A stretch of DNA of 42,524 nt, from positions 1 through 42,524 of the forward strand of contig JAHJDJ010000325.1 of NCBI GenBank assembly GCA_018812585.1. Direction: 5' to 3'. The stretch is from a bacterium (GTDB taxonomy: Bacteria; Electryoneota; B3-LCP). The position numbers and the translations under genes are program-made. Shown in pieces: positions 1,377 through 6,276 of the stretch. The notes below the pieces were generated by a model, which saw nothing but the letters and a program-made list of their open reading frames with translations, was not told where the DNA came from and ran no database searches. The stretch's first letter is position 1; every line of letters begins with the position of its first letter.

Positions 1377-2957
1377 GTGGCGGTTATGCAGAAACGGCTG
1401 ATTGCAATCACTGGGCAGGACAAAGATGGCGGCACACGCATTAAGCATACTCTCGCCAGCCGCGGGATCAATGCGACTTTTCACACCATCGATCTTCTGC
1501 AATTGGAAAAACTGAGTCCAGGGTTCGATGGAGTTGTCGTCCAAGTCAGATCGATGCCGGAGGCGCGTTCCATTGCCTCTATCTTTGAAAAACAAATCCG
1601 CCTCCCCCCCACCATCGCAATACTTTGCAAGGGTCTCCGTTACGCCTCGTACCAACCCATCCTGAACAAAGTTCCTCTCTTCCGCGAACCCAGCACCAAC
1701 GAACAATGGAATAATCTTGGCAGGGTAATCGGAGTTTTGATGCTGCAGGAACAGACTGTAAAAGAACAGCCTGTGAAGCGGTTGACCAAGTCCAGTTCTG
1801 GGTTTACCATTTATCCGAATGCGACACGCTGTGATGCATTGCGTTCATCAGGAGCTGTCGCCGGCGCGTTGACGGTCGAATTCGATCGAGCGCTGCATCA
1901 TATTGCTGAACGAGTCAGCTCTATCAACAAAGCGCTGAAACACGATATTCACATCTCATCCGATCTTGAGGCAATAGAGTGCGAAACTAAAAATGCTTCC
2001 CGCGTGACCACTCAGTTACGCAGTATGTTGAACGGGGAAACCGGGTTGCATGGCAGCGTTGACCTTAACCAGCTCCTGCGGGAAATCGTGCCGCTGGTTA
2101 AATCCATTCTGGGAAACCTGATACCCTTGACATTAGAATTGTATCCCGGCTCACTGCCTCTTTCCGGTGACCGGCTGCAGTTGCAGAGGGCGCTCTTTAA
2201 TATCTTCATCAATGCCAAGGATGCGCTGGGTAAGGAGGGGGCTTTGCGCATCAGGACCGGAAAGTTGAACTACGAGGACAGTTACGATCTGGGATTGGTA
2301 GAGGCGAAAAACGGCAGTGTCTGGATTGCCATACAAGATACCGGTCTGGGGATGACCACCAAAGTCAGAGAGAGCCTCTTTAAACCATTTTTCAGCACAA
2401 AACCTGTCCATGAGCATCCGGGGCTGGGCATGATCATGGTCAAGCATATCCTCGATCAGCATCAGGGGATTATCAACATCGACAGCCAGGCAGGTCGAGG
2501 CACTACGATTACATTTCATTTTCCTGCTCTTCCCATTACGAGAGGCGTTGCAACGAAGAGCGGCACAGCAGAAGACGAGGCTCGCTCCGTGCTGGTCATC
2601 TGCCATGAGCCGGTGATGCTGCAACTTTTAACGGACGTTCTACAACGCGAACAATACCGGGCATTGCATACTAATCGTTTATGGGAAGGGATTGAATTAC
2701 TGTACGAGCACCGTCATGAAATCGAAATTGTCATCTTACATGCGTCACCTTCCGACACGGATATGAAGGAGCTGGTCGAACGTGTACAGCAAATCCACAA
2801 AGAGGCTAAGATCATCATTATCCAGAGCCAGTCCATCGATAGCGACGTCGAAGCGCCAGATTCTCAGAACGTGAGATATCTATACAAACCGTTCCGGCTG
2901 AAGCATCTGTTGGAATCAATTGAACTCCTGAGAAAAGGCTCTGGAGCCGGCAATTGA
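1377..2957 (+). CDS. Histidine kinase-like protein with HATPase_c domain and degenerate N- and C-terminal receiver-like domains
   Basis: N box ALFNIFINAKDAL, G1 DTGLGM, F box FKPFFSTK, G2 GLGM; C-terminal RSVLVICHEP...IVILHASPSD...YLYKPF resembles a receiver domain. Confidence 0.85.
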   Translation: MAVMQKRLIAITGQDKDGGTRIKHTLASRGINATFHTIDLLQLEKLSPGFDGVVVQVRSMPEARSIASIFEKQIRLPPTIAILCKGLRYASYQPILNKVPLFREPSTNEQWNNLGRVIGVLMLQEQTVKEQPVKRLTKSSSGFTIYPNATRCDALRSSGAVAGALTVEFDRALHHIAERVSSINKALKHDIHISSDLEAIECETKNASRVTTQLRSMLNGETGLHGSVDLNQLLREIVPLVKSILGNLIPLTLELYPGSLPLSGDRLQLQRALFNIFINAKDALGKEGALRIRTGKLNYEDSYDLGLVEAKNGSVWIAIQDTGLGMTTKVRESLFKPFFSTKPVHEHPGLGMIMVKHILDQHQGIINIDSQAGRGTTITFHFPALPITRGVATKSGTAEDEARSVLVICHEPVMLQLLTDVLQREQYRALHTNRLWEGIELLYEHRHEIEIVILHASPSDTDMKELVERVQQIHKEAKIIIIQSQSIDSDVEAPDSQNVRYLYKPFRLKHLLESIELLRKGSGAGN

Positions 2958-2972
2958 TCGGATCTGAAAACA

Positions 2973-3096
2973 GAAAATAATAACGCCCCTATCGTGATAT
3001 TCGACAGGGGCGTTTTCGTTATCCGCTCTATTTCATCAAGCCGATGATCTTCTCGACGCCGCGTGACGTGAACCAGAAGCCGACGACCCATTTGGA
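2973..3096. repeat. Left copy of 124-bp direct repeat (terminator plus 3' end of holin gene)
   Basis: Aligned by eye with 4318-4441 at constant offset 1345; identical except 5 mismatches in the hairpin loop. Confidence 0.95.
2982..3016. terminator. Rho-independent terminator hairpin (duplicated copy)
   Basis: aacgcccct...aggggcgtt 9-bp stem; T-rich on both strands. Confidence 0.7.
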
Positions 3097-3247
3097 ACTC
3101 ATAATTACAAAAAAGCACCTCTCATTATGCGAACAAGCACTAAGAGATATAATTAGAAGTAGGGCTAATGGGTCTACGTAAAAAGGAAGATACTATGGAA
3201 TTGGTGCTTGAATTTGAAGATGGTAAGCCTGTTTAAAAAGGCTAGTA

Positions 3248-3772
3248 CTATTCTGTAGGAGGGTCTTCGCCGGTAGGTAAATCTTTAGTGGTTTTTACCG
3301 GGGTCCGTTGACGTGTGAATAAAAATCCACCGAAAACAATTGTCAGGGTTGATACAATTAGTGTTGTAGCGACCCATTCATGGTCATACATTGCTAAAAT
3401 TACGCCACACACAATAATAAATGCCGCCAACAAGCTTCCTAAAGTTTGTCCTCTTCTTTCTAATACACGTTGATCTTTTACCCCTTCAATAGCAGCAGAT
3501 AATTTTTTCTCCTCGAACTCAAACTCTTTAATATCCATCCTAAATCTATGCTGCTGTTCGTTTTCAGCTATTTTTATAATACGATCACCTGCACCAGTAA
3601 GCGTGCGTTCATATACCTCGAACTCAGAAGCCATTGGGAGAGGTCCACGCCGATACAATTCTTGTTGAATCGTAACAAGTCCTTTTGTTTCGCGTGGAAT
3701 CTCCTCAACGTCTCCAATATCTTCTGGCTCAGTCGGGAAATCTTCACCCTGCGGATCTTCAGAATCAGGCAT
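3248..3772 (-). CDS. DUF2335-like predicted membrane protein
   Basis: YRRGPLPMASEFEVYERTLTGAGDRIIKIAENEQQHR followed by two C-terminal hydrophobic segments, typical of the DUF2335 family. Confidence 0.75.
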   Translation of the reverse strand: MPDSEDPQGEDFPTEPEDIGDVEEIPRETKGLVTIQQELYRRGPLPMASEFEVYERTLTGAGDRIIKIAENEQQHRFRMDIKEFEFEEKKLSAAIEGVKDQRVLERRGQTLGSLLAAFIIVCGVILAMYDHEWVATTLIVSTLTIVFGGFLFTRQRTPVKTTKDLPTGEDPPTE

Positions 3773-3780
3773 ATATTACA

Positions 3781-4095
3781 CTAAGGAAACCTAATTGGTA
3801 ATTGAAAAGTGGAGTGAATGGAGTGTTTTGGTTTAGCATCAGAAAGTTCTAAGCCTACTGATGATATCCACATTTTTCGAATCTGGATACCATCATCAAT
3901 CCACGATCTCATTTTTCTAATTGATGGTTCGTGGATTGATGGAAGCCCTAAGCTTTCGGAGCTCACAGGGAAGAAGCTACCAATAAGAGAGCCAACACCA
4001 GAAAAATAGTGAGCTAAAGCGTCTCGCTGATACATGGTAATACTCTTCTTTGTGGATTTATTTCTGAGTTTTTCGAGCGGTTGCCTTCCAAACAT
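3781..4095 (-). CDS. Small hypothetical protein, possible operon partner of DUF2335 protein
   Basis: ORF 8 nt upstream of the DUF2335 ORF on the same strand; GGAG upstream of ATG; contains MYQRDALAHYFSGVGSLIGSFFP; no recognised family. Confidence 0.45.
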   Translation of the reverse strand: MFGRQPLEKLRNKSTKKSITMYQRDALAHYFSGVGSLIGSFFPVSSESLGLPSIHEPSIRKMRSWIDDGIQIRKMWISSVGLELSDAKPKHSIHSTFQLPIRFP

Positions 4096-4317
4096 AATTT
4101 ACCATCTCCATCATATTTTGTCAAGCAGTTTGTTAAATAATTCGCCAGCTACTTAGTTTCTTTTACTTGACTGGTATTCTCTTCTTTACAATATTTGATA
4201 CGTATCTATTCCCGTTCTCGTTGTGATTATACGCACAGAGCGGGAGTATGTTCACCCTAGTTATGTCAGAAAACACACTCAGCGTCCTATTCTACATATG
4301 TTAAACTAAGACATTGC

Positions 4318-4441
4318 GAAAATAATAACGCCCCTATCCTATAGTTCGACAGGGGCGTTTTCGTTATCCGCTCTATTTCATCAAGCCGATGATCTTCTCG
4401 ACGCCGCGTGACGTGAACCAGAAGCCGACGACCCATTTGGA
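4318..4441. repeat. Right copy of 124-bp direct repeat, within the intact holin gene 3' end and terminator
   Basis: See 2973-3096. Confidence 0.95.
4327..4361. terminator. Rho-independent terminator of holin gene
   Basis: aacgcccct...aggggcgtt stem; AT-rich tail on minus strand. Confidence 0.75.
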
Positions 4442-4867
4442 GAGTTCGACGACCTCTTCAGGGATGATGAGCAGATCGGGTAAGCTGATAAACACCTGTT
4501 GATAATATTGGATCAGTATTCCCAGGGCAAAAAGCCCCACCAGGCTAAACGACAGCAAGGGGCGTGTAATCGTCCGCCAGAGCTGTGCCTGAGGACTTAA
4601 CTCTGCGGCTTTGCCGTAGAATGCCATTTCGAATTCCCGCCTGGCTTGCTCTTCCTTCTGGAGAGCGGCTTGCAACTCAGGGTCCTGTTGCGCAAGCCTC
4701 TTCACACCAGATAGCACTTGATCGATCTGTCGATCTGCGATGCCGATTTCCTTGGCGGCTTTGCGAACCAGCAGATGGCCCGCGCCTTCGACCAGAGAAC
4801 GGACGATGGTTCCTCCCGGCAGGAGATCTGCCGCCGATGAAACGATACTTTTCAGATTGATTCCCAT
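4373..4867 (-). CDS. 3TM-type holin (GTA_holin_3TM-like)
   Basis: Amphipathic N-terminus, RPLLSFSLVGLFALGILIQYY TM segment, VVELSKWVVGFWFTSRGVEKIIG C-terminus. Confidence 0.75.
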   Translation of the reverse strand: MGINLKSIVSSAADLLPGGTIVRSLVEGAGHLLVRKAAKEIGIADRQIDQVLSGVKRLAQQDPELQAALQKEEQARREFEMAFYGKAAELSPQAQLWRTITRPLLSFSLVGLFALGILIQYYQQVFISLPDLLIIPEEVVELSKWVVGFWFTSRGVEKIIGLMK

Positions 4868-4881
4868 GATTTCCCCCCTTT

Positions 4882-5877
4882 CTAATTGGATTTCTTAAAA
4901 TAGATCATATACTTGGGATCAAGACGGCTGAAGCGGTAGGTTACGGCTTTGCCTTCCTGATCTTTCTCACCGCAGCGGTTGTATGCTTTCCAGCGCGTCA
5001 GGTTGATATTTTTACGGCCGTAGGGATCATGCGCAATGACGTAGGGTTCATCGAATTTATAGGTATATCCAATCCCCAGGATGACATGCTTCATACGGCT
5101 GGAGTTCAGCAGCGCTGGACTGCCCTGGTCGATGGCGCGTTGGAATTCCGCCAGCGTCACACTGGGTTGATAGACTGGCAACCAGCCTCCTCCATTACCT
5201 TGTGTGAACTGGAGACAGATATCTTTCAGGAAGTCTCCACGCGCCGTGATGATGCTGTTATAAGCGGAGGCAGGGTGGATTCCATCCCAAAGTTGCTGTC
5301 CCTTTCCCCAGTAATCCATCATATAGACATAGAGCCAGGTGGGTGATAAACGGTTAGAGCGCAGCCAGCTTGAAAGCGGCGCGCCATCAGGATATGCGGC
5401 AGGGGATCGGGTCAGGTCGAAAAAGCACAGCAGCATATAGAGCGAGGTCACGTTACAGGAGCCAGGTCTGATGCATCCTTTTTTTCTGGGGCCGGGGCAA
5501 TTTTTAGCGCCTTGACCATAGGATCCACCATCAGGAAGTTCGTTCATCCAGCAGCCGTCCGGAGTTTCGTCTCTACGGTCGGGGTCTGAAGCCCAATAGG
5601 CGCTGTCGGTGTGGGGATTGTCGAGTTGGCTGACGCAGGGGACGTTCCGAATGACGTGCTGATGTTTCGAGGACAGTGTCTCTTTGCATTCAGGCAGCAG
5701 GTATTCCCTGTCGGGCTTAAATATCCAGCCGTCAGATGATAAACAAGGATTATGTTTGACAACCTCTTCCTTGAATTCCTCCCAGGCTATGGGAATGTGG
5801 TTTTTGACCTGTTCGGTGTAGATTTTCCAGCGGCTGCCGCGCAGAGCGCGCTCGCGCCGCGTCCAGGATAAGGACAT
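4882..5877 (-). CDS. C39-like cysteine peptidase domain protein
   Basis: PGSCNVTSLYMLL (Cys), MKHVILGIGY (His), VIAHDPYG (Asp), in the order expected for Peptidase_C39_2; no obvious signal peptide. Confidence 0.75.
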   Translation of the reverse strand: MSLSWTRRERALRGSRWKIYTEQVKNHIPIAWEEFKEEVVKHNPCLSSDGWIFKPDREYLLPECKETLSSKHQHVIRNVPCVSQLDNPHTDSAYWASDPDRRDETPDGCWMNELPDGGSYGQGAKNCPGPRKKGCIRPGSCNVTSLYMLLCFFDLTRSPAAYPDGAPLSSWLRSNRLSPTWLYVYMMDYWGKGQQLWDGIHPASAYNSIITARGDFLKDICLQFTQGNGGGWLPVYQPSVTLAEFQRAIDQGSPALLNSSRMKHVILGIGYTYKFDEPYVIAHDPYGRKNINLTRWKAYNRCGEKDQEGKAVTYRFSRLDPKYMIYFKKSN

Positions 5878-6056: not shown

Positions 6057-6079
6057 GTAGCGCGGGGGCTTGCCCCCGC
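6057..6079 (+). repeat. REP-like GTAG hairpin
   Basis: gtag c gcgggggc tt gcccccgc. Confidence 0.65.
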
Positions 6080-6110
6080 AGACGGTTAACCGAAATGTCT
6101 TACCTGGGGT

Positions 6111-6129
6111 GTCATGGCCACGCCATGAC
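6111..6129. repeat. Perfect palindromic hairpin
   Basis: gtcatggc cac gccatgac. Confidence 0.8.
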
Positions 6130-6138
6130 GCATTATTC

Positions 6139-6162
6139 CTGTCACGGAAGTCTCCGTGACAG
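6139..6162. repeat. Perfect palindromic hairpin, 10-bp stem
   Basis: ctgtcacgga agtc tccgtgacag. Confidence 0.85.
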
Positions 6163-6175
6163 CCGAGGAAAGATT

Positions 6176-6214
6176 TACCCCTGACTGATGGACATTAATT
6201 ATTTATCTTTACAC
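6176..6214 (+). repeat. 39-bp motif copy C
   Basis: tacccctgactgatggacattaattatttatctttacac. Confidence 0.75.
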
Positions 6215-6276
6215 TCAGCCTACCCGCCCAGAATTCACTTGTACGCCTCTGGCGTATTCTGAGGGAGGGGCGGTGC

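Follow-up and report, generated by a model that had tools for sequence, protein, structure and literature searches.

How did a small block of foreign DNA come to lie between two copies of the 3' end of a bacterial gene, with that gene left complete, and what does it carry? The question is raised by the left part of a 42,524-nucleotide stretch of a bacterial contig (GTDB lineage Bacteria; Electryoneota; B3-LCP; GenBank assembly GCA_018812585.1, contig JAHJDJ010000325.1, positions 1 to 42,524), referred to here as the window. An earlier note on this DNA had described a repeat that brackets a two-gene cassette next to a holin gene, and had proposed insertion at the 3' end of that gene or, alternatively, a tandem duplication. 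The repeat, the cassette, the genes on either side and related loci were analyzed as described below.

The direct repeat

Repeat search of the window recovered an ungapped direct repeat of 124 bp at 2973-3096 and 4318-4441 (offset 1345, 96% identity), matching the coordinates, offset and five loop mismatches given in the earlier note. The mismatches occur at repeat positions 22, 24, 25, 26 and 27 (2994-2999 versus 4339-4344), all inside 6 bp of the terminator loop. As the chance of such clustering is p ~2.5e-6, the loop difference between the copies is probably the result of a single event rather than drift. The longest exact run shared by the two copies is 97 bp, the 66 coding bases before the stop codon are identical in both, and the composition of the repeat is host-like. 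The search for further copies that the earlier note had proposed was carried out in the window's own genome, a 3.85-Mb draft, where only the two repeat copies were found (next best match ~21 bp) and no further copy of the cassette. When 60 relatives were searched at the DNA level, the one match obtained was of 32 bp, inside the holin-like gene of genome G003.

As had been read previously, the repeat consists of a terminator and the last codons of the holin-like gene. The right copy holds the last codons, stop and terminator of the intact gene, and the left copy holds an orphan 3' end (22 codons and the stop) with a bidirectional terminator, which would end the cassette operon. Read in the same direction as the holin-like gene, each copy forms a strong hairpin (-26.6 and -23.2 kcal/mol, z -6.6 and -5.5). 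That of the right copy would terminate the holin transcript, and that of the left copy would terminate the cassette operon and, on the opposite strand, the transcript of the neighboring kinase gene. At the left junction the displaced holin tail could be read as a 24-residue frame, MSSKWVVGFWFTSRGVEKIIGLMK (3028-3102, minus strand), from an in-frame ATG two codons before the left repeat copy. The Shine-Dalgarno spacing of this frame is poor, and it is probably due to chance.

Other repeats were observed in the same genome (G000). On contig C39, a 103-bp direct repeat (92%; 1988-2090 and 3720-3822 of locus L086) holding a gene 5' end brackets a histidine-kinase gene beside phage-like genes, guessed from sequence to be of capsid type. 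This locus may be a second single-gene insert between target-like repeats of ~100 bp. Single genes, by eye of ORF6N type and GIY-YIG type, lie between direct repeats of 68 bp and 79 bp at two further loci (L101, 1008-1774; L109, 199-676), and these flanking repeats look like dispersed repeats. Within the window, CTTGTRCGCCTCTGGCGTATTC (6238-6259) is a dispersed repeat found at 8 places in the genome at no more than one mismatch, with none for the reversed control, and the intergenic stretch 6060-6180 carries several short perfect palindromes, for example GCGGGGGCTTGCCCCCGC and CTGTCACGGAAGTCTCCGTGACAG, which are REP-type in look.

Composition and signals of the cassette

The cassette between the repeats (3097-4317; 1,221 bp, single-copy) has a GC content of 39.4% compared with 51% in the rest of the window, in agreement with the earlier description of an AT-rich insert with two open reading frames, which were found at 3248-3772 (ORF1) and 3781-4095 (ORF2). 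When compared with 2,087 reference windows from 464 kb of its own genome (40 contig stretches sampled), the cassette fell within the lowest 1.05% for GC content and the top 0.84% for tetranucleotide distance. Third-position GC is 0.30 in ORF1 and 0.36 in ORF2, versus 0.57-0.63 in the adjoining genes. The composition of the cassette is foreign.

A promoter-like site (TGAACA-17-TATAAT) lies on the minus strand at 4254-4226, upstream of ORF2, and is a putative promoter of the cassette's own; it is a consensus match only, and such matches barely exceed chance in this stretch. No Rfam match to an RNA element was found in the region. The repeat search revealed no terminal inverted repeats at the cassette ends and the profile search no transposase domain among the cassette open reading frames, so that neither hallmark of an insertion sequence or transposon is present.

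The two genes of the cassette

ORF1 (174 aa; 3248-3772, minus strand) encodes a membrane protein of the DUF2335 family. It matched DUF2335 (PF10097) with E=1.2e-9 and 38.3 bits, above the curated cut-off of 25, and PHROG_3996, a membrane protein family in the moron category, at 4e-23. Its N-terminal part is soluble and bears the family motif, while two predicted membrane helices form a hairpin at the C-terminus. Searches for solved-structure relatives of DUF2335 produced nothing convincing, and the literature searched holds passing mentions only. No close relatives of ORF1 or of the holin-like gene were confirmed in the searched genome contigs.

ORF2 (104 aa; 3781-4095, minus strand), with GGAG 9 nt before its ATG, had no match above chance in profile libraries. 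It lies directly upstream of the DUF2335 gene, as small genes do at other loci, and aligns to both motif segments of the partner family described below. Against a first partner profile of 16 members its score was not separated from those of shuffled sequences. Against a second profile of 22 members, in which the two longest had been trimmed to the domain, its score was reached by 10 of 2000 of its own shuffles in this second attempt. We take ORF2 to be a probable divergent member of the small-partner family, for which the sequence evidence is moderate and the positional evidence good. A 13-bp inverted repeat, CATCAATCCACGA / TCGTGGATTGATG, was seen within ORF2 (3894-3941) as a self-match of the cassette.

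The two-gene module at other loci

Most other DUF2335 loci examined (10 of 11 in chromosomes, 12 of 13 in phages or plasmids) have a small open reading frame directly upstream, which in many cases overlaps the start of the DUF2335 gene; it was not present in genome G004 or in Klebsiella phage RAH1. In 21 of these 24 other loci (L055-L078) the upstream protein is of the partner family. Two segments, G-[VL]-x-S and DW-x-x-VG-x-DL-x-x-A (core W-x-x-VG-x-x-L), are common to the small partners, of which 21 of 22 outscored all of their own shuffles against a profile of the others, the exception being that of proPhi6. In PHROGs the tested partners are spread among several unknown-function families (27385, 26284, 10654 and 29944), and none of those tested matched a Pfam model. 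Together they appear to form one family.

The position of the pair in phage genomes is recurrent. The gene order of Staphylococcus phages E72 and IME-SA4 runs from holin and lysis gene (then other genes) through the pair to the integrase. The pair comes after holin and lysin in Lactococcus phages D6890 and proPhi6, and after holin and LytA in Streptococcus prophage Javan433, where it is at most about 400 bp from the prophage end. It adjoins the integrase in Pseudomonas phage MD8, and it was also present in an Enterobacter plasmid with phage-like genes. Lysogenic-conversion genes classically lie between the lysis genes and the attachment site, and the window's pair likewise lies directly behind a holin-like gene. 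The cassette pair is a recurrent phage module, a point absent from the earlier reading of this locus. No comparable flanking direct repeats were found within 4 kb at 11 other DUF2335 loci, which indicates that the repeat belongs to the window's insertion and not to the module.

No match to a known defense system was obtained for the cassette with PADLOC. Superinfection exclusion or a related trait would suit a small partner and a membrane hairpin protein that temperate phages carry in their conversion region, and we infer that phage exclusion or a similar conversion trait is the most likely function of the pair. The wider lead lies in this recurrent, unnamed and uncharacterized module of DUF2335 and small partner, which occurs in phages of both Gram-positive and Gram-negative hosts, in a phage-like plasmid and in chromosomes.

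Host genes and related loci

The holin-like gene (164 aa; 4373-4867, minus strand) is present as the earlier note had described, while its identity as a holin was reduced to a below-cut-off profile match (PF11351, GTA_holin_3TM; E=0.003, 18.5 bits, cut-off 24.8); hydropathy gave one strong helix versus three in the family. A 54% identical homologue was found in G003. Its partner is a gene for a C39_2-like peptidase (331 aa; 4882-5877, minus strand) with homologues in G001 and G003. The convergent left neighbor of the cassette is a histidine kinase / response regulator gene (1377-2957, plus strand).

For comparison there were five other genomes of the host family, all from other genera. The same region of G001 carries aldehyde dehydrogenase, kinase, C39 peptidase and thi genes, with ~160 bp between the kinase and C39 genes that hold no cassette and no convincing holin remnant. 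In G003 the C39 and holin-like genes are close to thi genes, and a glycosyltransferase comes after them; the holin-like gene has only one 3' end, with a different terminator, and the cassette is absent. As to the comparison with empty sites, which the earlier note had suggested, both loci are cassette-free and G003 has one holin 3' end, but the left neighbor in G003 differs from that in the window, G001 has no holin and both are of other genera. The simplest reading of these sequences is that the holin/C39 pair is older and that the cassette was gained in the window's lineage.

Origin of the insertion

Insertion at a gene 3' end with the target left intact, as proposed in the earlier note, agrees with the complete holin-like gene, the foreign cassette and the cassette-free region in G001 and G003. 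The same note had pointed to the missing integrase, and this was borne out: no hit to PF00589 was obtained on the contig and no integrase is present among the cassette open reading frames, while the genome has 9 tyrosine-recombinase hits, none of them on the contig. Its objection to a repeat of this length as an att core did not hold, since att identity blocks reach ~250 bp where the integrase targets a site inside a gene such as icd, so that 124 bp is not too long, and those at fis can run from the stop codon into the terminator of the gene (PMC10111431). In its layout the repeat corresponds to attL and attR at a gene 3' end.

The reading that we prefer, which we place somewhat short of an even chance, is that the cassette is a phage-type lysogenic-conversion ('moron') module and the remnant of an integrative element or prophage that has been stripped down. 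Such an element would have targeted the 3' end of the resident holin-like gene, with an attachment site bearing a replacement for the last codons and terminator. On integration, the element's copy (right) would have completed the holin-like gene, and the host's own 3' end would have been displaced to the far side (left), where it may now terminate the cassette operon. Since then the element would have lost its recombinase and all its other parts, or else recombination may have been provided in trans. A crossover between the repeats would cleanly remove the cassette. The make-up of the repeat (3' codons, stop and terminator of the target gene), with the gene intact and the far copy left as an orphan, argues for this reading. 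So does the recurrence of the DUF2335 pair in temperate phages between the lysis genes and the integrase or prophage end: a conversion module beside an att site is the expected leftover of prophage deletion, for which reason we rank the remnant first. Against it are the absence of a recombinase from cassette and contig, the lack of such repeats at the other DUF2335 loci and the fact that the available relatives are all of other genera. The identical 66 coding bases also count against it, as an attP copy evolving elsewhere should have gained silent changes.

That identity and the missing recombinase are what make illegitimate insertion with a 124-bp target duplication a serious rival, although one we regard as doubtful and less probable than the remnant. 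Phage DNA would have been ligated or copied in where the DNA was broken at the holin 3' end, with 124 bp of host sequence copied again through staggered repair or template switching and no site-specific recombinase involved. Copies that are identical outside one 6-bp cluster, as for a recent host duplication, and host-like in composition are consistent with this; however, the repeat ends neatly past the terminator and takes in the gene 3' end, which is the usual att layout, and the loop difference would need a separate multi-base event. Homologous recombination over the 124-bp block with a circle carrying a host-derived holin 3' end and the cassette would give the same end structure without an integrase, and the 97-bp exact run suffices for it. 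As host DNA and cassette must then have been joined beforehand on a single circle, and neither the block nor the cassette has another copy in the genome, we think this improbable.

An assembly artefact, that is a misjoin at a repeat of a length hard for short-read assemblers, could be suspected in a draft of 383 contigs. The loop differs between the copies, so that they are not one collapsed copy, the cassette was found nowhere else in the draft and both sides are biologically sensible, which together make a misjoin very improbable. The least probable of these explanations is the earlier note's alternative, in which the holin locus was duplicated in tandem long ago and the second copy was then largely replaced. 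By its sequence the left copy is indeed a piece of the holin-like gene, but near-identity implies a recent event, and yet no further holin sequence is present on the left, where the copy ends 24 codons into the gene; in addition, the cassette is foreign in composition and there is no second holin in the own genome or in G003. Turning from these rivals back to a recombinase-mediated insertion, one more speculative and improbable form of it is a minimal mobile element of ~1.35 kb, in which a putative exclusion pair and a 124-bp att site (holin 3' end and terminator hairpin) would be moved in trans by a recombinase encoded elsewhere, and the holin tail, displaced and given a new start codon, might act on the holin.

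Comparison with known systems

The insertion is of a known kind and is an unusually compact, integrase-less example of it. It illustrates how a conversion module of phages can come to lie next to a lysis-like gene pair of a bacterium and leave that pair unbroken. As in icd prophages and fis PICIs, the repeat is built from the end of the target gene (last codons, stop and terminator), the gene is intact and an orphan 3' end is left behind; unlike these elements, the cassette has only 1.2 kb between its repeats, with two genes, no integrase and no replication genes (PMC10111431). Because it has no integrase, the cassette can be at most a remnant, and not a complete member, of the integrative elements that target gene 3' ends. 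It resembles insertion sequences and integron cassettes in being a small gene cassette at a discrete site, and differs from them in that terminal inverted repeats and a transposase are lacking and the repeat is target-gene sequence.

In contrast to phage morons, the cassette is chromosomal, adjoins a holin/C39 pair, has no other prophage genes around it and is bracketed by a 124-bp direct repeat; like them, it is an AT-rich, self-contained unit with its own terminator beside lysis genes, and ORF1 belongs to the moron-category PHROG_3996. Identity between the window's pair and the DUF2335 phage pairs is low (16-30%), and the two genes overlap in most phages, whereas those of the window do not. 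Nevertheless, the pairs of E72, Javan433 and MD8 are like that of the window in gene order, size, N-terminal motif and C-terminal membrane hairpin.
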